Shown one piece after another: positions 1-11,427 of a DNA stretch of 64,000 nucleotides. Each line of letters starts with the position of its first letter. Position 1 is the first letter of the stretch. This DNA is from Lachnospiraceae bacterium (GTDB taxonomy: Bacteria > Bacillota > Clostridia > Lachnospirales > Lachnospiraceae), in contig JAFQZU010000026.1 in assembly GCA_017405805.1 (NCBI GenBank), forward strand, positions 36,933 to 100,932. The letters run 5' to 3'. Both the position numbers and the translations under genes were made by a program. The notes under the pieces were generated by a model. The model saw only the letters and a program-made list of their open reading frames with translations. It was not told the origin of the DNA and ran no database searches.

Positions 1-867
1 CAGGCGGTCGATGACCCCGGCGCCGCGCACGGCCTGGTCCAGGAACCCTTTGTAGCGCGCCATCAGAATGGAGAAGGAAGTGAGCGGCACGTCCCCGGGA
101 ACCTGTGCGGAGACAGATGAAAAGACCTGGCTGTCCGTGATCACAAGGGAAGGCTTTATCCCGGGGATCTCCAGCACTTCCTTCAGCCGGTCCTCCTTGA
201 CGCAAACCGGGATCCCGTCCGCATCCAGGATCCCGCGGAGCATCATCTGCTGCGGCAGGATCAGCCGGCCCTTGGGCGCCGCCTTGTCGATGGGGATCAC
301 AAGGACGACCCTGTCGGAGGGCCTGACCAGGTCCGCGATCAGAGGCCTCCTGCCCTTCTGGTCCGAAAGCTCCATATGCGCCAGCTTCTCCTTGAGCTGC
401 GTGATCCCTTCTTTCAGCAGGGCGCTCGTATAGATGGCGCCCTCCTCCGCCGCCTGCTCTCCGGAAGCTTCGATCAGATCGGCCTTGTTGAAGACCGTGA
501 CATAAGGGATCCCGAACTGTCTGAAGCAGCGCACCAGCTCCCTGTCGCAGTCCGTCAAGCCCCTTCGCGCGTCCGCCACCAGCACCGCAATATCCGTCCT
601 TCTTAAGATCCTGCGCGCCGCCCGCACGCGGAGGGCCCCCAGTTCTCCCTCGTCGTCGTATCCGGGGGTATCCTGCAGAAGGACCGGCCCCATGGGCAGA
701 AGCTCCATGGCCTTTGTCACCGGGTCCGTCGTGGTGCCGGGCGTATCGGAGACCACCGATACCTCCTGCCCCGCGACCGCGTTGATCAGACTCGATTTTC
801 CCGCGTTGCGCCGGCCGAAAAACCCTATGTAGACCCGCTCGGCGTTCGGTGTATCCTGAAGACTCAT
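1..867 (-). CDS. hydF: HydF, [FeFe]-hydrogenase maturation GTPase (C-terminus beyond left edge)
   Basis: Reading leftwards from ATG at 867, 289 residues are visible. HydF is the GTPase scaffold that carries the precursor of the two-iron subcluster (with CO and CN ligands) and delivers it to [FeFe]-hydrogenase. Seen: G1 loop GRRNAGKSS at about residues 18-26, a DTPGTTTDP switch, DTPGYDDEGE, NKAD, then the HydF-specific stretches PIDKAAPKGRLILPQQ and TDSQVF followed by LTSFSILMARYKG. The Fe-S-binding C-terminal Cys/His residues lie outside the window. The start overlaps the upstream gene stop as ATGA; an alternative ATG at 873 is possible, and GGGAGG stands just before both. It is co-directional with and apparently part of the Hyp/nitrogenase-like operon. 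Family assignment is firm; its partner enzyme here is not known. Confidence 0.93.
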   Translation of the reverse strand, partial: MSLQDTPNAERVYIGFFGRRNAGKSSLINAVAGQEVSVVSDTPGTTTDPVTKAMELLPMGPVLLQDTPGYDDEGELGALRVRAARRILRRTDIAVLVADARRGLTDCDRELVRCFRQFGIPYVTVFNKADLIEASGEQAAEEGAIYTSALLKEGITQLKEKLAHMELSDQKGRRPLIADLVRPSDRVVLVIPIDKAAPKGRLILPQQMMLRGILDADGIPVCVKEDRLKEVLEIPGIKPSLVITDSQVFSSVSAQVPGDVPLTSFSILMARYKGFLDQAVRGAGVIDRL

Positions 868-2090
868 ATCCATTTTCCTCCCATGATCGACGCGCAGTCC
901 CCCTCGAACAGATCCGGCATCCTGTCCAGAAAGATCCGGCCGGAAAAGGCCAGATGCGGGACGGGAAACAGCTCTGCGCCCTCCGGGCAGACCGGCCTGT
1001 AAAGGGGATCCGCCGCCACGGCGATCCTCTCTCCCCTGCTGTCCGCTTCCCGCGCCAGGACCCGGAGCCTTTTCGCGAGCTCCTCCTCCCCGAAGAAGGA
1101 GAAATCGCGGTCTTTTCTGATAAAAGGCGCGCTGTTTTCCGTCGCGGCCGCCACGACCGTCTTTGTGCTGCCGCCGCTCTCCATCCGCAGCGCCGCCGCA
1201 AGGCTCCCCATGACGACCGGTTCCCCGATCAGGATCACGGTCCTTCGCGCGGCTGCGTTTTCCGGCACTTCCAAAAACGGGACCGTAAACTGCCCGGGCC
1301 GGTCTCCCGCTGCTTTTTCCGTCTCTCTTAACAGTCTTTCCGAGAAGGCCCCGCAGGGGACGCCGAAGACCGCCGGCGTTCCAAAGCGCTCCCGCAGCAC
1401 CTGCGCTGCCCCTTCCCCCGAGGAGGAGACGGCCAGATTGACGTCTGCCCGGGCAGAAGATCCGATCGACTGCACGCCCCTTCCCATGCCCCAGCAGGCA
1501 TGCAGGCGCAGAGAGGCCTTCTCCAGCTTATCTTCCAGCGCCTCCGCCGCCCCCGGGGCGGCGAAATCCAGCGGTGTCATTCCCAGCACATTCACTTTGA
1601 GAGGGCCTCCTGCAAAAGAAGTGCTTTCCGCCGTCACAGCCTCCTCCACGAGCACGGTCTCCGCCAGCTGCGCAAACGCCTGCGAAACACCCTGTACATA
1701 GTCATGCATCCCGTTGGTCCTGACATGGAAGACCGGCACGCCGGTCCTCTTCTCCAGTACCCTGCACACGCCGGCAAAATCCGTCCCGTTCAGATAGGGA
1801 ATCGGGGAATTGCACAGCGCGATAAAGCGCGGGCGGTAGAGCGCTGCGGCCTGCGCCGTGTCCTCGATGAGCTTCTTATCATTCCCGAGCATGGCGTCCC
1901 GCTCCGTAAATCCCGTCAGGAAGATCAGGCTGTCCGTGTCGTACCATCGCGTCTCGTCGTGGGTGTCGTAGGTGGAATAGCAGCCCGAAGGATCGTGGAT
2001 CACCACCATGCCGCCCATCTCGAACAGGGCCGAGCAGGCCCCGGAGACGTCGCCGCTGTAAACCGGCAGGATCCGGTTGGTCTGTCTCAT
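864..2090 (-). CDS. Nitrogenase component 1-like protein, second subunit (NifK/NifN-type)
   Basis: 408 residues with the nitrogenase component-1 (oxidoreductase type 1) fold by sequence pattern. ATG at 2090 overlaps the stop of the upstream subunit gene (ATGA), so the two are probably translationally coupled partners. Seen: opening YSGDVSGACSALFEMGG, Cys at about 19, 37, 93 and 109, and FIALCNSPIPYLNGTDF, which sits where NifD/NifK carry a Cys and a G-D-D/G-T-D motif. Its N-terminal half closely resembles the second half of the fused protein at 8249-10666, so the two are paralogues. By analogy with NifEN versus NifDK this pair could be a scaffold or a second catalytic unit. Exact substrate and cofactor cannot be read from the sequence. 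It is not a canonical NifK: it is shorter and has fewer conserved cysteines. Confidence 0.82.
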   Translation of the reverse strand: MRQTNRILPVYSGDVSGACSALFEMGGMVVIHDPSGCYSTYDTHDETRWYDTDSLIFLTGFTERDAMLGNDKKLIEDTAQAAALYRPRFIALCNSPIPYLNGTDFAGVCRVLEKRTGVPVFHVRTNGMHDYVQGVSQAFAQLAETVLVEEAVTAESTSFAGGPLKVNVLGMTPLDFAAPGAAEALEDKLEKASLRLHACWGMGRGVQSIGSSARADVNLAVSSSGEGAAQVLRERFGTPAVFGVPCGAFSERLLRETEKAAGDRPGQFTVPFLEVPENAAARRTVILIGEPVVMGSLAAALRMESGGSTKTVVAAATENSAPFIRKDRDFSFFGEEELAKRLRVLAREADSRGERIAVAADPLYRPVCPEGAELFPVPHLAFSGRIFLDRMPDLFEGDCASIMGGKWI

Positions 2091-3514
2091 ATCCTTGTCC
2101 TTTCCGCCGCGCCCGGCAGGATGCAGGTGCAGCCGAGGCCCTTTCGCTGCACGATCTCTTTCGTATCCTTTTTGACAAGGCAGGCCTCTTCCATAAGCTG
2201 CGCCATCCGCCGGATCCCGTAATAGCCCCAGAGTCCGCCGTATTCCACCATGTTCACGAACCACGGGGTGTCCTCATACCAGGCGGCTTTGGGACCGATG
2301 GCAAGGACTTCCTCCCCGCCCGCGGCGCGCTCTTCCTCTCTGCAAAGGCGCCCGCCGTGCAGGACTCTTCCCCCGATATGCACCGTCTTATGCAGATACA
2401 GGTCCGGAAAGGATTCCTGCAGGAAGAGGAAATCCTTCTCCTCCTCCGGATGGATCATGTCCAGATAGACGGTCTTTACGGCAAAACCATGCTCCAAAAG
2501 AAGGCGCGCCCATCCCAGCGGTCTCTGGACGGCCGCAGCGTCGATGGCGATCTGCCTCGTTCCGACCGTTGCCTTCGCCCCGGCCAGCGCCGCCTCGCAG
2601 GCCTCGATCTCCTCATTTTGGCGATGATTAAAAAGTGCTGTGTCCGGCTGCAGTCCCAGCGCCCCGGCGAGCTGCCCCCGCATCCTTCGGATCTCCTCAT
2701 AGCCGTAGGCGTTGGGGAGATACAGGCCGGGCTTCCCCAGCCTTTTGGCCGCGCGCCGCATGCCCGGCGCCGCCAGGGGGCTCCTCGCGATAAAAAGGTC
2801 GCTCCCTGCCATCTGCCGGTACGCAGCGAAAGTGCCGCAGTCCTGGATCCTGTGGAGCCGGGCGCCGGCCTCTGAGACAAGGCGCGCGATATCGCTGTCC
2901 TCTTCCAGCGGGAGATTGTCCCCGATCACCGATACGTGGAAGCCTCCCTCCGGATAGGGCTGCGCCGAGCCGGCCGTGAGAAGATCCGCCATGGCGGTGC
3001 GCAGCTTTTCATCGGGCGTGGGGCCGGTCTTCTGCATGACCGGGTCCATCCAGGCGCGCACGAAAACAACGTCGGGAAATCGCTTTTCCAGTTCCGCGTA
3101 GACATACTGCAGATCGCAGCCCATAAAGTGATGCAGGCAGACGGGGAACACGATGACCGCGGGCGGCAGTGCGGGAAGCTTGTGCAGGACGTCCGTCACG
3201 CCCTCCAGCGTGATGCTCTCGAGGTTGTCCCTGTAGAGGTCGCTCTCCGTGATCAGGACGCAGGAAAAACGCTCCAGCGCGTCCATCTCCGCCGCCGTCA
3301 TCACCACGCCCCGCATGCAGTTCTCCGCGCAGACATAGATCTGGTGCGCCTGCGGCAGAAGCATCCCGATATGGACGATATTCCAGGTCTCGTGGACGGG
3401 CGGGTTGAATTCGAGTTCCCTCTTCCAGGGGTTCGGGAAAACCGCTTCCCCGATCCGCACCCGGACTTCTTCGGGCGTGATCCCGCGCGCCCCGGGCGTC
3501 ACTCTGGTCAGCAT
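2087..3514 (-). CDS. Nitrogenase component 1-like protein, first subunit (NifD/NifE-type)
   Basis: 475 residues. Conserved-looking Cys at about 62 and 66 (VCAENCMRG), 85, 126 and 133 (FPVCLHHFMGCDL) occupy the regions where component-1 proteins bind the bridging P-type cluster. The rest shows alternating alpha/beta domains (for example VSVIGDNLPLEEDSD and the helix-rich GMRRAAKRLGKPGLYLPNAYGYEE). It overlaps the next gene by 4 bp and starts 42 bp after hypE. It pairs with the 864-2090 product and is distinct in sequence from the first half of the fused protein, although both begin with a Cys-rich lobe. Known relatives of this superfamily reduce N2, chlorophyllide, Ni-sirohydrochlorin diamide or thioethers; which of these, if any, applies here is not evident. 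Confidence 0.82.
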   Translation of the reverse strand: MLTRVTPGARGITPEEVRVRIGEAVFPNPWKRELEFNPPVHETWNIVHIGMLLPQAHQIYVCAENCMRGVVMTAAEMDALERFSCVLITESDLYRDNLESITLEGVTDVLHKLPALPPAVIVFPVCLHHFMGCDLQYVYAELEKRFPDVVFVRAWMDPVMQKTGPTPDEKLRTAMADLLTAGSAQPYPEGGFHVSVIGDNLPLEEDSDIARLVSEAGARLHRIQDCGTFAAYRQMAGSDLFIARSPLAAPGMRRAAKRLGKPGLYLPNAYGYEEIRRMRGQLAGALGLQPDTALFNHRQNEEIEACEAALAGAKATVGTRQIAIDAAAVQRPLGWARLLLEHGFAVKTVYLDMIHPEEEKDFLFLQESFPDLYLHKTVHIGGRVLHGGRLCREEERAAGGEEVLAIGPKAAWYEDTPWFVNMVEYGGLWGYYGIRRMAQLMEEACLVKKDTKEIVQRKGLGCTCILPGAAERTRI

Positions 3515-3556
3515 GGCGCCTCCTTTCTCTTTCGCTTATCTGATCCGGCTGTCTCT

Positions 3557-4564
3557 TCAGCAGATCCTGGGCAGGAGCTCTCCCCCCGGGGGCGGCAGGA
3601 GCGTCAGCGCGCCGATCCTGGTGCGCATCACAACTCTTCCGGCCTCCTCTTTCGTGATCTTTCCGATCGCGCGGGCCCCTTGCGTGTGCGGGCTCCCGTG
3701 CAGGATGTCCAGGATCCTGTCCGCCTTATCCCCGGGCGCGATCATGACCATGGTGCCCTCACAGGCCAGATAGAGGGGCTCAAGCCCCAGCATGCCGCAG
3801 ACGCCGCGCACGGCGGGATCGACGGGAACCGCCTCCGAATTCAGCTCACATCCGACGCCGCTCTGTCCGGCGATCTCATAGAGCACAGTGCCCACGCCGC
3901 CGCGGGTCGCGTCCCGGATGACATGTACGTCCGGCACCTCCAGCAGGACCGAACGGACTGCCTTCCAAAGCGGCGCGCAGTCGCTCTTTATGTCCGCTTC
4001 GATGCCGAAATCCTCTCTCTCAAGAAGGATGGTGCACCCGTGCCGTCCCACGTCTCCCGTCACGATGATCACGTCCCCGGGCCTGGCCAGCGCCCCGGAG
4101 GTCCGGATCCCGTCCATGATTCTCCCGATCCCGGTCGTGTTGATAAAGACGCCGTCCGCCTGTCCCTTCCCTACGACTTTCGTGTCGCCGGCTACGAGCA
4201 GTACGCCTGCCTCCCGGGCCGTCTGCGACATGGCCTCGGCGACTTTTTTGAGTTTTTCCAGGGGGAATCCTTCCTCGATGATAAAACCGCAGGTCATATA
4301 CAGCGGTTCCGCCCCCATGCAGGCCAGATCATTCACCGTGCCGCAGATGGAGAGCTTTCCGATATTGCCGCCCGGAAAGAAGGCGGGCGATACGATAAAA
4401 CTGTCGGTCGTCATGGCCAGCTCCCCCTGCGGCACGCGCAGCACCGCCGCGTCATCCGCGGTAAAATAAGGGTTTTCAAAGGCCGCCCTGAAGACCGTTT
4501 CAATGAGCTGGGCCGTCTTTTTTCCGCCTGCCCCGTGTGCCAGCGTTACATATTCTTCCTTCAT
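3557..4564 (-). CDS. hypE: HypE, carbamoyl-phosphate-derived thiocyanate dehydratase
   Basis: 335 residues, the normal length. HypE accepts a carbamoyl group on its C-terminal Cys from HypF and dehydrates it with ATP to a thiocyanate, the source of the two CN ligands on iron. Seen: start region LAHGAGGK, ATP-binding motifs TADDAAVL and MTTDSFIV, GDTKVV, DATRGGVG, and a perfect C-terminal PRIC ending at the final residue (Cys335), which is the catalytic tail. All residues needed for activity appear present, so this is an active-looking protein and not a remnant. It lies 37 bp after hypD. No [NiFe]-hydrogenase structural gene is nearby; neighbours are nitrogenase-like genes. Confidence 0.97.
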   Translation of the reverse strand: MKEEYVTLAHGAGGKKTAQLIETVFRAAFENPYFTADDAAVLRVPQGELAMTTDSFIVSPAFFPGGNIGKLSICGTVNDLACMGAEPLYMTCGFIIEEGFPLEKLKKVAEAMSQTAREAGVLLVAGDTKVVGKGQADGVFINTTGIGRIMDGIRTSGALARPGDVIIVTGDVGRHGCTILLEREDFGIEADIKSDCAPLWKAVRSVLLEVPDVHVIRDATRGGVGTVLYEIAGQSGVGCELNSEAVPVDPAVRGVCGMLGLEPLYLACEGTMVMIAPGDKADRILDILHGSPHTQGARAIGKITKEEAGRVVMRTRIGALTLLPPPGGELLPRIC

Positions 4565-4601
4565 ATTCTCCTCCCTGGGAGCGGATCACGGGATCCGCCC
4601 C

Positions 4602-5630
4602 TCATCCATACAGATAAAAAGCCGAGCAGGCCCCCTCGCCGGAGACCATACAGGCGCCGACGGGGTGCTCCGGCGTACAGACTTTGCCAAACAGGCTGCA
4701 GTCCCGGGGAAGACATTTCCCCTGCAGCACTTCCCCGCAGCGGCAGGCCGGATTGCTCCTTCCGTGCATGGGCGGGAGCGAAAACTTCCGCCTCGCGTCA
4801 TACCGGGCGTATTTGTCCCGCAGTTTCATGCCCGACATGGGCAGGACGCCGATCCCTCGCCACTCGCTGTCACAGGGCTCCATGATGCGCTCCACGAGCC
4901 TGCGGGCAGCCGGCGAGCCCTCTCTTTTGACCACTCTCGGGTAGCAGTTGACGAAGAAAGGCTCGCCCTTTTCGAACCGGGTCACCGCCACAGCCAGCGC
5001 CGTCAGAAGCTCGGACGCCGTAAAGCCGGCGCAGACGCCGCTCACGCCTTCCTCCGCCAGCTTTTCGCAGATGCCGGTCCCGGTGATCGCGTGCACGTGT
5101 CCCGGATACAGGAACAGGTCCGTGCTGTGCCGCATGGCGTCATAGGCGGCCGGCATGGTCTTGCCGGCCGTAAGAAGGCTGAAATTGTCGAGTGCGGCGG
5201 CTTTCTCCACAGCGATGCAGGATGCGGGCGTCGTCGTCTCAAACCCGACGGAGAGAAAGACCACCTGCTCTTCCGGGTGTCCCGCCGCGTATTCCGCCGC
5301 GTCCGCCGGCGCGTACACCACACGCACTTTTGCGCCCTGCCCCCTTGCGTCCGCGAGACTCATGCTTGTTCCGGGCACCCGCACCAGATCGCCGAAAGTG
5401 CAGATGGTGCACCCGTGCTCCAGGGCCAGGGATACCGTCTCGTCGATAAAGCCTGCCGGCGTCACGCAGACGGGGCAGCCGGGACCGGAGATCAGCGTGA
5501 TCTTCGCGGGCAGGATGCGGCGTATGCCCTGCCGGAAGATCTCGTGCGTATGGGTCCCGCACACCTCCATGATCCGCACCGGCGGTCCGTCGTATTTTTG
5601 AAGGATCTGTGCCGCTTTCATTTCCGCCAT
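4602..5630 (-). CDS. hypD: HypD, Fe(CN)2CO assembly protein
   Basis: 342 residues. With HypC this Fe-S protein forms the scaffold where iron receives CN and CO. Seen: VCGTHTHEIFRQGIR with Cys24, SGPGCPVCVT with Cys52 and Cys55, GFETTTP, PGHVHAITG, and the C-terminal [4Fe-4S]-binding region CRCGEVLQGKCLPRDC followed by further Cys in FGKVCTP and GACMVSGEGACSAF. Every diagnostic Cys and His of the family is retained. The gene is 3 bp from the hypC stop and 37 bp ahead of hypE, as in a classic hypCDE order. ATG at 5630 is chosen; an in-frame ATG three codons further in is also possible. Confidence 0.97.
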   Translation of the reverse strand: MAEMKAAQILQKYDGPPVRIMEVCGTHTHEIFRQGIRRILPAKITLISGPGCPVCVTPAGFIDETVSLALEHGCTICTFGDLVRVPGTSMSLADARGQGAKVRVVYAPADAAEYAAGHPEEQVVFLSVGFETTTPASCIAVEKAAALDNFSLLTAGKTMPAAYDAMRHSTDLFLYPGHVHAITGTGICEKLAEEGVSGVCAGFTASELLTALAVAVTRFEKGEPFFVNCYPRVVKREGSPAARRLVERIMEPCDSEWRGIGVLPMSGMKLRDKYARYDARRKFSLPPMHGRSNPACRCGEVLQGKCLPRDCSLFGKVCTPEHPVGACMVSGEGACSAFYLYG

Positions 5631-5633
5631 GAT

Positions 5634-5849
5634 CTATAAGCCCTCCGTCTGCAGGAGACGTTCGCTCTCCTCTTCGTCATCCTCCGTGATCCTGGCGATC
5701 GCCGCGCCGGCGTGGACCATCACATATTCACCCGGCTCCAGATCCTCCAAAAGGGCCGCGCTCACCTCTCTGCGCGCGCCGGAGGCATCCACCAGCGCCG
5801 TGCCGTCTTCCCTGATCCTGACCACTCTGGCCGCAAGTCCTACACACAT
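5634..5849 (-). CDS. hypC: HypC/HupF-family chaperone
   Basis: 71 residues, slightly short for the family but within range. The protein starts MCVG; Cys2 is the essential iron-carrying residue of HypC. The classic MCLGIPG is replaced by MCVGLAARV, and the middle EPGEYVMVHAGAAIARI matches the usual GDYVLVHVGFAI pattern, with the conserved His kept. The acidic tail is family-like. HypC binds HypD during Fe(CN)2CO assembly and normally then docks the iron on the large subunit of a [NiFe]-hydrogenase. Here the start codon lies 1 bp after the hypF stop. The changed N-terminal loop may reflect a different target protein; this is inference. Confidence 0.94.
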   Translation of the reverse strand: MCVGLAARVVRIREDGTALVDASGARREVSAALLEDLEPGEYVMVHAGAAIARITEDDEEESERLLQTEGL

Positions 5850-5850
5850 A

Positions 5851-8262
5851 TCAAGCTCTCCCTTCCGAATTCTTCGTTTTTGTTCTCACACGCAGTCTTT
5901 CCATGGCCGCCACGGCCTGCCCCAGCGCGATCCCCCCGTCACTCGGCGGGATCATACTGTGGACCAGGACCTCCATTCCACGGCCCGCAAGGCGCTCCTG
6001 CACCATCTGCAGAAGCATTTTATTCTGGAAGCACCCGCCGCTGAGGGCCGCCGTCCCGATCCCCGTCCTTTCGCAGGCGCGCAGGCAGGCTTCCGCGACC
6101 AGATCCGCCAGTCCCGCATGAAAGCGGTACGCCAGTTCGTCCGCCGGATCTCCCCGGAGACGCCCGCACAGGACCTGCCTGAAAAGCCTGTCCGTCTCCA
6201 TGACCATAAAACCGTCCTCCCGCTCTGTGAGGCCTGTTTCGGCAAAGGGCCCCGGCAGCGCTGTCCCGTTTCGGACCGCTGTATCCCGGAAGCGCTCTGC
6301 GGCAAATTCCAGATCCATGGCCGCCTCCCCCTCGAAGGAAGAGGCGGTGCAGATCCCCAGGACAGCGCTCACCGCGTCAAAAAGCCTCCCGGCGCTGGTG
6401 GACCGCACGGCTCCCATGCCGCTCCGCTTCATCCGCATCAGCACCCGCGCCTGCAGCTCGGAACACAGCCCGATCTCTGCGGCCAGTTCTTCGGGGCTCT
6501 CCCCGGATCCCGCGGGGGACAGATCGTCCAGCATGGCGGCGGCGATGCGCCATCCTTCTTTGGCGGACAGATCTCCGCCCACCTGCAAAAACGGCGCGAT
6601 GCTCCCGAGCCGAGCAAAGCCCGTCGCATCCGCGATCAGGATCTCACCGCCCCAGATCGTGCCGTCCGTCCCGTATCCCGTCCCGTCCAGGGCCGCGCCG
6701 ATCACCCGGTCCATCCGGTCGTTCTCTGCCATGCAGGACAGAATGTGGGCGTAATGGTGCTGTACTGTGATCAGCTCCGCACCGTATTCCTGCGCCAGAA
6801 CCTTGGCCGCGCCCGCGGAGTTGTACTGCGGGTGAAGATCACAGGCGATCACTTCGGGATGCAATTCGAGGAGCTTCGCGTAGCGGCACACAGTTTCCTC
6901 CAGGGCCTTTACGCTCCGCAGATCCCCCAGATCCCCGATGTGCGAGGAGGGATAGAACAGATTTCCCGTCCCGAGACAGAACGTATTCTTGAGCTCTCCG
7001 CCGATGCCCAGCACGGCGCCCGTTTTTTGACGGCCCTCCCGCGCCGGAAAACCGGAGAGCATGCAGGGCACCGGCGCATAGCCCCTCGACCGCCGGATCA
7101 TATACGGCTTTCCCCGGTAGAAATCCATGACGGAATCGTCCGCCCGGATGCGGATCTTTCTGTCGTGGGACAGGATGCAGTCGCACAGGCCGCTCAGCTC
7201 GCGCAGCGCCTCCCCGTCGTTTCTGCAGATGGGGGCGCCCGCCACATTTCCGCTCGTCATGACGAGGGCGTCCGGCATCCGCTCGTCGAGCCCGTCGGGA
7301 TAGGAAAAGAGCAGCATCTGGACCGGCGCGTACGGGAGCATCACGCCCAGCGTCGGATTGCCCGGTGCCACCGCCTCGCAGATCTTTCCGCCGGGTTTGC
7401 GCACAAGGAGCAGGATCGGTTTCTGGTGCCCCGTCAGGATCTCCTGCTGCGCACGGCTCACCTCGCATTCCCGCTGCGCGGTCTCCGGATCCCTCACCAT
7501 CACGGCAAACGGTTTGCGGGGCCGGGTCTTGCGCGCGCGCAGAAGGTTTACCGCCTCTTCGGACAGGGCGTCGCAGCACAGATGAAAGCCGCCGACCCCC
7601 TTCACGGCAAGGATCCCTCCCTCCGCCAGGACTTTGCGCGCCTTTCTGATGGCGCTGTCTCCCTGCTCCCGGATCCCGTCCCGGTCCACGACATACACGC
7701 TGGGACCGCACTTATTGCAGCAGACCGGCTGCGCGTCGTACCGTCTGCTGGACGGCATGACATACTCCGCGCGGCACTTTCTGCACATGGGAAACATCTT
7801 CATGCTGGTGCGCTCCCTGTCATAGGGCAGCGATTCCAGTATGGTCAGGCGGGGGCCGCAGTTCGTACAGTTGATGAAGGGATGCAGGTACCGCCTGTCC
7901 GCGGGATCGTAGAGTTCCTTCCTGCAGGTGTCGCAGGTGGCGATATCCGGGGAGATAAAGATCTCCCCGCTTGTTTTTTCGCTCTCCACGATGGAGAAGC
8001 CGTCAAAATGCGGCGCCGCGATCTGCGCCGACTCCACGCCCAGGATCACTGCCCTGGCCGGCGGCTTACTCTGCAGCAGCGAACGGAACCGGTCGATCTG
8101 CGCCGGGGTTCCCTGGGCTATGATATCGACGCAGGAGCCCCTGTTGCAGACGGTTCCCCGTATGCCTGCGGTCCGGGCGTGGCGGTCTGCCGTCGGCCTG
8201 AACCCGACTCCCTGCACGATGCCGTATACCCTTATTCTTCTGGTGATCTCATCTGCGCTCAC
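5851..8262 (-). CDS. hypF: HypF, carbamoyltransferase for CN ligand synthesis
   Basis: 803 residues from a GTG start at 8262; no in-frame ATG gives the right N-terminus and AAAGGA lies 7 bp upstream. The gene overlaps the fused nitrogenase-like gene by 14 bp. Domains in order: acylphosphatase (IVQGVGFRP, about 10-95), two zinc fingers (CDTC with CTNC, then CRKC with CNKC, about 105-190), YrdC-like (about 200-390, with KGVGGFHLCCDA), Kae1/TobZ-like carbamoyltransferase (HHYAHILSCMAEN, ALDGTGYGTDGTIWGGE, LSGGCFQN). HypF turns carbamoyl phosphate into a carbamoyl-adenylate and passes the carbamoyl group to HypE. All key motifs are intact. Placement inside a nitrogenase-like operon is unusual. 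Confidence 0.97.
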   Translation of the reverse strand: MSADEITRRIRVYGIVQGVGFRPTADRHARTAGIRGTVCNRGSCVDIIAQGTPAQIDRFRSLLQSKPPARAVILGVESAQIAAPHFDGFSIVESEKTSGEIFISPDIATCDTCRKELYDPADRRYLHPFINCTNCGPRLTILESLPYDRERTSMKMFPMCRKCRAEYVMPSSRRYDAQPVCCNKCGPSVYVVDRDGIREQGDSAIRKARKVLAEGGILAVKGVGGFHLCCDALSEEAVNLLRARKTRPRKPFAVMVRDPETAQRECEVSRAQQEILTGHQKPILLLVRKPGGKICEAVAPGNPTLGVMLPYAPVQMLLFSYPDGLDERMPDALVMTSGNVAGAPICRNDGEALRELSGLCDCILSHDRKIRIRADDSVMDFYRGKPYMIRRSRGYAPVPCMLSGFPAREGRQKTGAVLGIGGELKNTFCLGTGNLFYPSSHIGDLGDLRSVKALEETVCRYAKLLELHPEVIACDLHPQYNSAGAAKVLAQEYGAELITVQHHYAHILSCMAENDRMDRVIGAALDGTGYGTDGTIWGGEILIADATGFARLGSIAPFLQVGGDLSAKEGWRIAAAMLDDLSPAGSGESPEELAAEIGLCSELQARVLMRMKRSGMGAVRSTSAGRLFDAVSAVLGICTASSFEGEAAMDLEFAAERFRDTAVRNGTALPGPFAETGLTEREDGFMVMETDRLFRQVLCGRLRGDPADELAYRFHAGLADLVAEACLRACERTGIGTAALSGGCFQNKMLLQMVQERLAGRGMEVLVHSMIPPSDGGIALGQAVAAMERLRVRTKTKNSEGRA

Positions 8263-10666
8263 TGCCTGTCCTTTCCCTCTCTTCCTCCGTGTGTCCGGAA
8301 ACGGCAAAATGTACCAGCGGGATCCACGCCCCTTCAAAGGCCGGCACCATCTCCCTGCACACGGGATCTGCCGCGATCACGTCGTAGCTGCCCCTTCGGA
8401 CGGCGGACGCAAAGGCCGCGGCGTCCGAAAAAGCGAGGTCTCCCTCCTTCATCAGGTCCTTCTTCATCATGAAAAAGCTTCCTGCCGTCACGGAGGCCGC
8501 CCCCTCTTCCACAAGCACGTCCCGTATGGAATTTGCCGTGATCTGCTCGTGTACCACAAGGACCTTTTTGCCCTTCCAGTCCGCGTTCCAGCCGCGCGCG
8601 GCACGCGCCGCAAGGGGATTTTCACAGGTAAAGGGCGTCCCGAAGCGGTCCCGGAGGACCTTTGCGGCCTCATAGGCCGAGACGGATACCACCAGGTTGG
8701 CGGCGGCGCTGCCCGCCTCTTTGAATCGGTCCAGCCCGTCCCCCATGCCGCAGCAGACAGGCTCGCGCCACCCCTCCTCAAGGAGGAGTTCCTTGAGCCG
8801 CATGCCGCTGTCCGGATCTCCCAGATCCATGGGCGTGGCGCCGAGGATCCCAAGGCGCCCCTGCCGCACTGTCACCTCCCCCGCCGGGCAGAAGGTGTCC
8901 GCCAGCGCCAGCCAGGCTTTTTCCGCACCGGCGTCATAGTACGCCATTCCGGTCGTCGGGATGGCCAGCACCGGAAGACCGGTCTTCTTTTTGACCATGC
9001 GCGATATGGCCTGCAGATCAGTCCCGATCACGGCGGGGACCGGCGTGCCGATGACTGCGGCAAAAGCGTATTCGTCCTCCTGCGCCGCCTCCGCGAGCTT
9101 GCGGACGAGGTCCCTGTCCCGGCCCATAATGGCGTCCATATCCCGCAGTCCCGCGCTGAACAGGGCGCTTTTGCGGGTGAGCCATCTCGGCTCGTCAAAA
9201 CCGCATATATTTCCCGTACAGCCTCCCGCATCGCAGATGACCGTTATGCCGCCCAGGCCAAAGAGCACCGATACCGCCCCCGACTGATCCGGCGCAAAGG
9301 GCGTCACGCTCAGTGAGGATCCCCTGAGCTGAACGGAAGGGGCGTACGCGGCCGCGGCCGCTCCGGCATCGGTCCCGCCCTCCGCCAGCCGGGTGAGCGC
9401 CTCGTAAAAGCGCTTTGCGCCCCTGTAGCCGAAGGGCTGAACGTCACTGCTCCACTGCAGGCACGGAAGATCCCTGTGATAATAGCCGGCGTCCCTTCCC
9501 ACGCAAAGGGTGACCGCCGGGTCCGCCTCATAGTGGATCATGGAGGGGTGCAGGCTGGAGTAGACCCGCGTGTCCGGGCTGACCGCCGCGATCCTGCGCA
9601 GATAGGGGTAGGACGCCTCCGTCACGGTCCCGAAGATCTCCGCCACGGCAAAGCCGCTCCGGACCAGCGCCAGCGCCAGCTCAAAGGGATCTCCGTTGAG
9701 GGCCTCTCCCACTGAAAAGACGGCGTCCGCATGGCGCTTCCGAAAGGCCTCCAGGACCGCCTCTGCTTCCTTCCTGTACGCCTCGTCGTCAAAACGCACG
9801 CCCAGCACCGACCCCAGCGCGGCATACTGCTGCGCGATCCTGTCGATCTGATAGAGTCTGGTCAGTTCGACGGCGGGAATGCCCAGCCGCTCCTCCAGAT
9901 CCAGGGCGGCGGGCCGGGCCTCCGGATGGAGGACCAGGTTGAAATTGGCCTCCGCCATCTCCAAAAAGGCGTCGTAATCCGCCGCGGTCGGAAGCGAGCG
10001 TATGGCCTTTACGCCGGCCTGTCCAAGGAGCGCAGGCAGTTCGCAGTCCTCCTCAAGCGGCGCAAAATATCCCAGTATATTCACGCTGGTGCGCTTTCTG
10101 GGCCTTTTTTCCAAAAGCGCATACAGGGACTGCCTCACATGCACCATGGGCGGTCTGCGCCCTTCCCTGGTCAGCGCGTACATGTAGCAGGGGCGGACCC
10201 GCACGCCGGTCTTTTCCTGCGCTTTGCGGCAGACCCGCTCCATATCGGTGCCGAGCAGCGCGTCCACGCAGGTGATGCAGATCATGACGACCGAAGGCTT
10301 CCTGCCCAGCTCCCCGCAGATCTTCTCCACGGCCGCCGGGATCTTCTTCAGGTGCCGTCCGGTCACCAGGTCCGTCTCATTCATGGTCAGATAAAAGAAG
10401 CGGTTCTCATAGCCCGGCATGGCGCTGATGGAGGAGGTATTTCTCGCGCAGCACCCCGGGGACACGACCAGCATCACGGAGCCGGGGATGGAGAGGCCTG
10501 CTCTTTTGACGCCGAATCCTTCCGCGCCGGGCGAGTGGAAGGCCAGTGTTGCCGGGGAGCTGTAAAGCAGGGTTTCCGTTGTTTTGAAAGGCCTTGGAAT
10601 CTCCCGGGCCCCCGCCCGGACCAGTTCTCCCACAGTATAAAAAAGCGCACCGCTCCGGTCTCTCAT
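8249..10666 (-). CDS. Fused nitrogenase component 1-like protein (D-like and K-like halves in one chain)
   Basis: 805 residues made of two component-1-type halves. First half (about 1-445): Cys at 72 and 73 (SPGCCARN) and 130, 133 (MICITCVDALLGTDM), the positions of P-cluster-type ligands. Second half (about 450-805): CDAGGCTGNICGFDEPRW gives Cys 478, 483 and 488, but the usual third ligand site reads GTPVPAVIGTDL with no Cys. The second half resembles the separate 864-2090 protein along its length. ATG at 10666 overlaps the NifH-like stop (ATGA), linking reductase and its target enzyme. Nitrogenase D and K are normally separate genes, so the natural fusion is notable. It is likely the partner of the NifH-like protein at 10663-11427. 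Reaction unknown. Confidence 0.85.
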   Translation of the reverse strand: MRDRSGALFYTVGELVRAGAREIPRPFKTTETLLYSSPATLAFHSPGAEGFGVKRAGLSIPGSVMLVVSPGCCARNTSSISAMPGYENRFFYLTMNETDLVTGRHLKKIPAAVEKICGELGRKPSVVMICITCVDALLGTDMERVCRKAQEKTGVRVRPCYMYALTREGRRPPMVHVRQSLYALLEKRPRKRTSVNILGYFAPLEEDCELPALLGQAGVKAIRSLPTAADYDAFLEMAEANFNLVLHPEARPAALDLEERLGIPAVELTRLYQIDRIAQQYAALGSVLGVRFDDEAYRKEAEAVLEAFRKRHADAVFSVGEALNGDPFELALALVRSGFAVAEIFGTVTEASYPYLRRIAAVSPDTRVYSSLHPSMIHYEADPAVTLCVGRDAGYYHRDLPCLQWSSDVQPFGYRGAKRFYEALTRLAEGGTDAGAAAAAYAPSVQLRGSSLSVTPFAPDQSGAVSVLFGLGGITVICDAGGCTGNICGFDEPRWLTRKSALFSAGLRDMDAIMGRDRDLVRKLAEAAQEDEYAFAAVIGTPVPAVIGTDLQAISRMVKKKTGLPVLAIPTTGMAYYDAGAEKAWLALADTFCPAGEVTVRQGRLGILGATPMDLGDPDSGMRLKELLLEEGWREPVCCGMGDGLDRFKEAGSAAANLVVSVSAYEAAKVLRDRFGTPFTCENPLAARAARGWNADWKGKKVLVVHEQITANSIRDVLVEEGAASVTAGSFFMMKKDLMKEGDLAFSDAAAFASAVRRGSYDVIAADPVCREMVPAFEGAWIPLVHFAVSGHTEEERERTGSERR

Positions 10667-11427
10667 GTGCCGCCTTCCTCCTCTTCGATCAGTTTCTGCG
10701 CCAGTTCCAGAAAGCAGCGGCTTACAGGGAGCGACGGATCCCGTTCGACCGTCGTCATGCCCTTCTCCTCACACTGCTGGATCTCCCTGCTCCTGGGGAC
10801 GAAGGCGATGACGGGGATTCCCTGTCCGTCGGCAAAATCCTGCACCTTCTCCCTCTCCTTCTCTACATTCCGCTCGTTGCAGATCACGCCGTACACGCCG
10901 GCGTATCCCCTGTCCTCGAAATTGCGCACGGCGGTACAGATATTGCCGGCCGCATATAGGGCCATCTTCTCGCCGGAAGTCACAATGATGACTTTGCGCG
11001 CATATCCCTCCCGGATGGGGGCGGCAAAACCGCCGCACACCACGTCGCCGAGCACGTCGTACAAAACCACGTCCGGCCGGAAAGTCTCAAAGAGCCTGAG
11101 ATCCTCCAGGATCTGGAAAGTGGCAAGGATCCCTCTCCCGGCACACCCCAGACCGGGGGTCGGCCCTCCCGTCTCGATGCAAAGGACATTTCCGTAGCCC
11201 GACGCGGAGATCTCCTCCACGCTCTGAGGATCCTCGTCGTGATCTCTCAGGTAATCCATGACGGGCGTTACGCGCCGTCCTCCCAGGAGATTCATGGTGG
11301 AATCCGCCTTGGGATCGCAGCCGATCTGGATGACCCGCTTTCCCAGCTTCGCGAACGCCGCCGACAAGTGGGAGGTCATGGTGGACTTCCCGATTCCGCC
11401 TTTACCGTAAACCGCAATTCTGATCAT
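10663..11427 (-). CDS. NifH/BchL-family ATP-dependent Fe-protein reductase
   Basis: 254 residues from ATG at 11427 with GAAGGAG 6-7 bp upstream; longer in-frame extension runs into the leader hairpin and is rejected. NifH-type proteins are homodimers that bridge a [4Fe-4S] cluster and pass electrons one at a time, with ATP hydrolysis, to component-1 proteins. Seen: P-loop GKGGIGKST (8-16), GCDPKAD (36-42), cluster ligands Cys95 in LGCAGRGI and Cys131 in GDVVCGGF, and the Arg of the CAGRG loop. Shorter than nitrogenase NifH (about 290), which fits the nitrogenase-like (group IV or V type) proteins. It is first in an operon with component-1 and Hyp genes. The 4-bp overlap with the fused gene supports a working pair. 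Confidence 0.93.
   Translation of the reverse strand: MIRIAVYGKGGIGKSTMTSHLSAAFAKLGKRVIQIGCDPKADSTMNLLGGRRVTPVMDYLRDHDEDPQSVEEISASGYGNVLCIETGGPTPGLGCAGRGILATFQILEDLRLFETFRPDVVLYDVLGDVVCGGFAAPIREGYARKVIIVTSGEKMALYAAGNICTAVRNFEDRGYAGVYGVICNERNVEKEREKVQDFADGQGIPVIAFVPRSREIQQCEEKGMTTVERDPSLPVSRCFLELAQKLIEEEEGGT

Follow-up and report, generated by a model that had tools for sequence, protein, structure and literature searches.

The window analysed here is a 64,000-nucleotide stretch of a Lachnospiraceae bacterium (GCA_017405805.1, contig JAFQZU010000026.1, positions 36,933 to 100,932; C2:36933-100932 of a focal genome that is 84% complete in 40 contigs). It begins with nine genes, all on the minus strand, that run from position 11427 down to 1: nifH1, a D1-K1 fusion, hypF, hypC, hypD, hypE, D2, K2 and hydF. 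The product of nifH1 (10663..11427) is a NifH-type ATP-dependent reductase (PF00142, 293 bits) with the P-loop GKGGIGKS and both [4Fe-4S] cysteines; the other two PF00142 matches of the genome are weak in comparison (47 and 37 bits). It overlaps by 4 bp the D1-K1 fusion (8249..10666), in which two nitrogenase component-1-like subunits form one chain with two PF00148 stretches (179 bits). The next gene, hypF (5851..8337; TIGR00143, 705 bits against a cut-off of 466), has an unsure exact start inside the end of D1-K1 and encodes the carbamoyltransferase that, with HypE, provides the cyanide (CN) precursor. It is followed by hypC (5634..5849; TIGR00074, 56.9 against 48), for an Fe carrier chaperone with an N-terminal MC, by hypD (4602..5630; TIGR00075, 359 against 192.8), for the scaffold on which iron is assembled with CN and carbon monoxide (CO), and by hypE (3557..4564; TIGR02124, 418 against 252), for the cyanide-forming protein with a C-terminal PRIC. 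A gap of about 42 bp separates hypE from the second component-1-like pair, which consists of the divergent D2 (2087..3514; PF00148, 42.7 bits) and its partner K2 (864..2090; 103 bits). These two genes overlap by 4 bp if K2 starts at 2090, with MRQTNRI. K2 in turn overlaps hydF by about 10 bp. The latter encodes the scaffold GTPase of the H-cluster, occupies 1..873 and extends to about -335 outside the window (L004 14598-15806); its product, the sole HydF detected in the focal genome, exceeds the NCBIfam cut-off even as a window-edge fragment (TIGR03918, 517 bits). The initial annotation had described a tight, same-strand operon of nine genes, and the spacing and the scores of HypF, HypC, HypD, HypE and HydF, all above NCBIfam cut-offs, confirm that description.

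The operon is real, widespread and conserved. When 392 genomes of the order were searched with the fused D1-K1 protein, 36 matched at E <= 1e-20, and reading of the neighbourhoods placed 18 of them in a hyp-type operon class (G000, G173, G238, G269, G329, G380, G390, G075, G084, G120, G135, G136, G160, G251, G281, G287, G290 and G293), several on short contigs. G293 belongs to this class by D1 identity only, with hyp genes unseen there and hydF-hydE-nifH-D2 together on another contig. G238 is rearranged, with D1 and hypD about 15 kb apart on one contig and K2 and hypE on another. The remaining 18 matching genomes have systems of other kinds. Most are nifHDK sets with no hyp genes in the part of the neighbourhood that was read; in G388 D2K2 lies with hydE/hydF, and in G151 at a contig end. 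Three loci (L055, L059 and L063) hold a different nifH-D-K group without hyp genes, and by eye their neighbours resemble genes for an ABC transporter (FecCD-type) and lipoproteins.

A scan of named genomes yielded 414 D1 relatives, of which the best 80 were kept; these named loci come from two phyla. In all 80, nifH directly precedes D1. Directly after D1/K1 stands hypF in 73 loci, and the other seven end within 94 bases. The run hypC-hypD-hypE follows hypF directly in 65 of the 73, and the remaining eight loci stop there, L186 after hypD and the others no more than 2 bases from hypF. D2 was found in 61/80 loci and K2 in 55/80, upstream of D1 in five; L127 has room on both sides and D2K2 is not present. 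A second nifH (nifH2) was called in 35/80, hydF in 19/80, hydE in 12/80, and hydE and/or hydF in 21/80. The full architecture, hydF-hydE-nifH2-D2-K2-nifH1-D1-K1-hypF-C-D-E, occurs in L044, L045, L049 and L050, and Blautia-type loci read nifH1-D1-K1-hypF-C-D-E-nifH2-D2-K2. D1 and K1 are separate genes in most relatives and fused in 15 collected proteins (including L184, L155, L159 and several Actinomycetota loci), which are spread over the D1 tree in three or more distinct places. In that tree a single branch (support 99) unites the Actinomycetota and separates them from the Bacillota, and the long branch of the focal protein makes its placement unsure. Because the operon is kept in many genomes, chance adjacency is excluded. 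The link between Hyp and nitrogenase-like proteins, for which the initial annotation had asked for conserved synteny, thus holds across many genomes of two phyla.

Several genes of the [FeFe]-hydrogenase system accompany the operon. Among the unassigned reading frames only one small-protein family recurs widely inside it (22 of 25 members inside), and this protein is TM1266 (TIGR03959, 105.3 against 60.8 bits), which putatively regulates the iron-only hydrogenase system. A wider search placed TM1266 in 41/80 named loci and 10/16 other operon loci, and found none in the focal region. Of the 23 Actinomycetota loci, 12 have hydE and/or hydF encoded on the strand opposite to nifH1 and upstream of it, at distances from overlapping to 6.5 kb. 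The operon-class HydE proteins (23 collected) include that of L044, with 561 against a TIGR03956 cut-off of 254.6. HydF exceeds its cut-off in 17/18 operon genomes of the order, the exception being the fragmented G281. Matches to PF02906 occur in 18/18, and the cysteines of the three H-cluster motifs are intact in HydA of the 13/13 operon genomes checked; G380 has Ser for Pro in the first motif, and the focal genome has two PF02906 matches, both with the H-cluster cysteines. Second PF02906-type proteins of about 578 residues in G075 (L086 9029-10762) and G136 (L087 3531-5261) were missed by the motif patterns. In one locus (L152 3724-5178) a gene for aspartate ammonia-lyase lies between hydF and hydE; aspA has been tied to the bridging-ligand nitrogen of the H-cluster (PMC11736057).

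HydE and HydF themselves appear unaltered. Operon-class and HydG-containing genomes were compared for HydE (23 vs 18 sequences) and HydF (31 vs 14), with 'neither' rows left out and the HydF of G151 counted as operon-class, and no column was found in which both classes were more than 80% uniform with different residues. Since neither protein carries a class-specific residue, the change is probably upstream, in the supply to HydE. On the HydE tree the operon class needs about five changes, of which well-supported branches force only one; repeated recruitment is no more than suggested.

The canonical H-cluster route is described as needing three maturases, with HydG as the source of CO and CN (PMC11736057), and a C. 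thermocellum mutant without hydG and ech gave no detectable H2 (PMC4355364). In the 392 order genomes HydG (TIGR03955) was above the cut-off in 170, and HydF (TIGR03918) matched in 193, 191 of them above the cut-off. HydG was found in none of the 18 operon genomes. Among the 193 HydF-containing genomes, HydG occurred in 0/17 with the operon and 164/176 without it (Fisher p 5.3e-17, without correction for kinship). The exclusion extends into a single genus, g13, whose D1 proteins are the same, or almost the same, as in named Blautia: three of its genomes (G173, G269 and G329) carry the operon and lack HydG, and a fourth, G372, has HydG and lacks HypD. HypD itself was present in 17/18 operon genomes and 8/50 HydG-containing genomes. 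Of the 80 named operon genomes, 50 (completeness not stated) were tested for HydG, and 48 of these were without it above the cut-off, including 12/12 tested Actinomycetota genomes as well as C. ljungdahlii, C. ragsdalei and C. carboxidivorans. Carriers that appear to lack HydG include the gut bacteria Blautia, Roseburia faecis and Coprococcus comes, Actinomycetota of the Atopobiaceae type, and acetogens that grow on syngas, among them C. ljungdahlii. On this genomic pattern, the operon probably replaces HydG in H-cluster assembly, with the Hyp proteins the likely suppliers of cyanide.

Several observations weigh against replacement. Two named genomes, C. drakei and C. thailandense, combine the operon with HydG. 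Conversely, 12 order genomes have HydF and neither HydG nor a hyp-type operon (G017, G252, G260, G268 and G321 of genus g84; G008 and G053 of genus g75; G129, G156, G082, G174 and G151), and HydG loss therefore does not always need the operon. None of the 12 has a HypD match, and the HydA motifs are intact in G017 and G008; in these two some other solution or ligand uptake must exist, or the enzymes are idle. G388 has D2K2 beside hydE/hydF together with HydG and no HypD. Of the 11 Actinomycetota loci in which hydE/hydF is absent, seven extend 3-9 kb upstream, so that the operon and hydE/hydF are not always linked. HypCD normally makes Fe(CN)2CO, which has one CN too many for the H-cluster iron. 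The focal copy is degraded in addition to the incompleteness of its genome, with nifH2 missing and hydE broken. Finally, all support for the replacement is genomic, consisting of gene content, gene order, intact catalytic motifs, the exclusion of HydG and co-occurrence with HydF, HydE and HydA.

Some of these loci merit description. Genera g84 (L072, L073, L078) and g75 (L074, L075) may use yet another route to the H-cluster; g84 also has HydE and TM1266, and a gene that by eye resembles one for a B12-type radical S-adenosylmethionine (SAM) protein follows hydF in L072 (G017:C7). The G388 locus (L068 4357-14145) contains a D2K2-type nifH-D-K set, ABC transporter-like genes recognized by eye, TM1266, hydE and hydF, and is possibly an evolutionary intermediate. 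The broken focal hydE lies downstream of hydF outside the window (L004 13959 to about 14640) and was located by tblastn, for which three intact relatives served as queries. One frame covers the residues between 38-57 and 110-116, and a second frame those from 179-190 to approximately the end; the gene thus lacks its N-terminus and some 70 residues in the middle. The break is either a binning or assembly error or real decay. Next comes fumC (L004 12586-13962); it was considered as aspA and rejected, as it is FumC by the model cut-off.

The genomes with HydF and neither HydG nor HypD, and the two that keep both systems, would fit an operon that acts in H-cluster assembly without replacing HydG. 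CO and CN would then come from elsewhere, and the Hyp and nitrogenase-like proteins would have a secondary task, for example repair, the scavenging of ligands or synthesis of the bridging ligand; weak maturation without HydG from free diatomics has in fact been discussed (PMC9431212). The near-perfect exclusion of HydG in two phyla and inside one genus speaks against such an arrangement, as does the oddity of a full cyanide-making HypEF set in a side job, and we consider it unlikely.

HydG might also be replaced by another radical SAM protein while the operon does something else. In part this is the account given for Clostridium acetogens other than C. autoethanogenum, where an atypical radical SAM protein of about 450 residues or free CO/CN was suggested to explain the absent HydG (PMC9431212), and it too counts against replacement by the operon. 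Matches to the HydG model below the cut-off (167-190 bits) occur in 8/18 operon genomes (G000, G173, G238, G269, G329, G380, G390 and G281), where the proteins are called ThiH-like from size and score alone, and at E 1e-25 in 25/50 named operon genomes (170-217 bits), two of which also have true HydG. The other ten operon genomes (e.g., G075, G084, G120, G135, G136 and G160) have no sub-cut-off match, and C. ljungdahlii and C. ragsdalei have none at E 1e-25. Because they are absent from 10/18 operon genomes, the ThiH-like proteins were rejected as a hidden HydG and are not a general substitute for it; judged from these matches to the HydG model, a divergent radical SAM protein in this role is very improbable.

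The catalytic residues of the Hyp proteins are nearly invariant. The Zn-finger cysteines of HypF are kept in 75/75 full-length relatives, the Met-Cys of HypC in 81/82 collected sequences, CGTH and GPGCPVC of HypD in 80/80 longer than 330 residues, and the PRIC end of HypE in 77/77 full-length sequences. Their usual client would be a [NiFe]-hydrogenase, and the hyp genes could then be mere neighbours of a nitrogenase-like operon. Some evidence points this way: the large subunit (PF00374) matches in 8/18 operon genomes, and a group 1a [NiFe]-hydrogenase is reported from Clostridium acetogens (PMC9431212), in which Hyp could therefore serve [NiFe]-hydrogenase too. Two of the eight matches were read (L109 and L110, in G075 and G238), and both are EchE-like with both cysteine motifs. 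In G238, which has two HypD, the Ech genes are followed by their own hypC-hypD-hypE. No PF00374 match was obtained in the other 10/18 operon genomes, including the focal one, and six of these ten are 98-100% complete. Operon genomes thus do not always have a [NiFe]-hydrogenase match; by the initial annotation's own test, a special link between Hyp and the nitrogenase-like proteins would have been unsupported if every one of them had such a hydrogenase with its hyp genes only there. Hyp accordingly has another client, since the large subunit has no match in these ten; a cryptic [NiFe]-hydrogenase was rejected in this role, the two of the eight matches that were read being EchE-like. Together with the position of hypF, which follows D1/K1 in every named locus that does not end there, this makes a purely [NiFe]-directed function scarcely credible.

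The nitrogenase-like proteins belong to none of the known equivalog families of NCBIfam that they were compared with. NifH1 scores 305 against a CfbC cut-off of 402 and 199 against a BchL cut-off of 345, and is also below the NifH cut-off; among solved structures it comes closest to nitrogenase Fe proteins (E 2.5e-69), and its four conserved cysteines are kept in 83/83 full-length relatives. D2 matches no NCBIfam model, and the scores of the D1-K1 fusion and K2 fall far short of every Nif/Bch equivalog cut-off. For the fusion NifE is the best model (107 bits against a cut-off of 505), and D1 and K2 are closest to NifE among NCBIfam models and match NifE and NifD among solved structures. A D1 cysteine aligns with TC of NifD/NifE. 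At the position of NifD C275, the Cys ligand of the FeMo-cofactor, the aligned residue in D1 and K2 is not Cys. D1 keeps the cysteines expected for an interface Fe-S cluster and not the FeMo-cofactor cysteine. In D2, H55, C73, C133 and H135 are present in 70/70 sequences and C69 in 69/70, and in K2, H93, C98 and H105 are present in 60/60 (open reading frame numbering). NifE belongs to a scaffold for cofactor assembly. Because D1 and K2 are most NifE-like and D1 retains the interface cysteines without that of the cofactor, our proposal is that these pairs act as assembly reductases.

The initial annotation had favoured a different function, in which Hyp and HydF would supply the nitrogenase-like enzyme itself with a new Fe-CN-CO cofactor. 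Such an enzyme would have its own catalytic role, and its link to HydG loss would be indirect. The presence and conservation of two NifH-D-K sets, and D/K proteins below the known equivalog cut-offs, would suit this proposal. It does not predict the absence of HydG, the company of TM1266, hydE and hydF, or the unchanged HydE and HydF. While the association of Hyp with the nitrogenase-like proteins stands, by its synteny and by the genomes without [NiFe]-hydrogenase, the cofactor itself is not borne out by a distribution that tracks HydF, HydE, TM1266, [FeFe]-hydrogenase and the absence of HydG, and we judge it unlikely. Because the operon tracks the [FeFe] genes and HydG absence, the nitrogenase-like proteins most likely serve H-cluster assembly.

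If the operon replaces HydG, a sequence of steps can be envisaged. HypF and HypE would turn carbamoyl phosphate into cyanide, and HypC and HypD, in their role known from [NiFe]-hydrogenase, would assemble iron, CN and CO into one unit. NifH-type reductases are the classic way to couple ATP to low potentials. NifH1 with D1K1 and/or NifH2, where present, with D2K2 would spend ATP-gated low-potential electrons on the Fe-CN-CO unit, with the D/K proteins acting as NifEN-like scaffolds. This would make the unit, or rearrange it, to give a synthon of the Fe(CO)2(CN) type, such as HydG normally delivers to HydE; HydE, HydF and the apo-hydrogenase would then proceed as usual. A first guess at the reaction is the formation of CO on iron from CO2 or another C1 unit. 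This assignment of CO formation to the nitrogenase-like complexes is speculative, and which pair does what is a guess. The complete scheme, a second, tyrosine-independent H-cluster route that combines HypEF cyanide with a nitrogenase-like, ATP-driven reductase making CO on HypCD-bound iron, is likewise put forward only tentatively.

The literature contains observations that this scheme would explain. Eight Clostridium acetogens have HydE and HydF, HydG is reported in only three of them (for C. autoethanogenum, on the basis of a variant motif), HypCDEF occurs without detected HypA or HypB in five, and each of the eight has a group 1a [NiFe]-hydrogenase (PMC9431212). In the available text of that paper Hyp is not invoked for the absent HydG, and the word nitrogenase appears once, in a reference title. 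C. carboxidivorans is credited with two hypCDE sets (PMC9431212), and one set for [NiFe]-hydrogenase and one for the present operon (L157) would fit. The [FeFe]-hydrogenase HytA-E of C. autoethanogenum, an acetogen whose hypCDEF is described in print, has been purified (PMC5861303; PMC9431212), and the main texts of transposon sequencing and proteome papers on this organism contain, among the terms searched, no nitrogenase, HydG or maturation wording. Among the papers listed, none was found that joins HydG loss, Hyp and nitrogenase-like genes or that describes the operon or its role, with preprints and subscription journals outside the search. If the proposal is true, it would explain both the acetogens that have HydE/HydF and no HydG and the occurrence of HypCDEF without HypAB, and gives a function to an undescribed group of nitrogenase-like enzymes. 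It would also link three assembly systems (Hyd, Hyp and nitrogenase-like) and identify an enzyme that forms the CO ligand anaerobically. The anaerobic source of the CO ligand of [NiFe]-hydrogenase has been described as unresolved, and ATP would be required to reduce CO2, at a potential near -530 mV (PMC12134894, 2025), so that the operon would offer a genetic handle on this source.

In comparison with known systems, the operon shares parts with each and is identical to none. As in the canonical HydE/HydF/HydG route, operon genomes have HydF and HydE above NCBIfam cut-offs, TM1266, and HydA with the H-cluster cysteines. In the canonical route HydG gives HydE an Fe(Cys)(CO)2(CN) synthon (PMC11736057); in contrast, the operon genomes without HydG (18/18 in the order, 48/50 named) have HypCDEF and two nitrogenase-like complexes instead. 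In HypABCDEF maturation of [NiFe]-hydrogenase, HypCD carries Fe(CN)2CO, with CN from carbamoyl phosphate (PMC12134894). HypF, HypC, HypD and HypE of the operon resemble that system in scoring above cut-off with catalytic residues, but no hypA or hypB was seen in the operon, and the large subunit has no match in ten of the 18 genomes. The likeness to NifEN/NifDK with NifH lies in the NifE/NifD matches of the D1 and K2 profiles, the TC-aligned cysteine of D1, and the cysteines and P-loop of NifH; the operon proteins differ in falling below the equivalog cut-offs, in lacking Cys at C275 in D1 and K2, and in their Hyp/Hyd neighbours. CfbCD and BchLNB/XYZ also combine a NifH-like protein with a component-1-like pair, but NifH1 is below the CfbC and BchL cut-offs and the neighbours are other ones. 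Methylthio-alkane reductase (Mar) is a further nitrogenase-like enzyme with the same combination of a NifH-like protein and a component-1-like pair.

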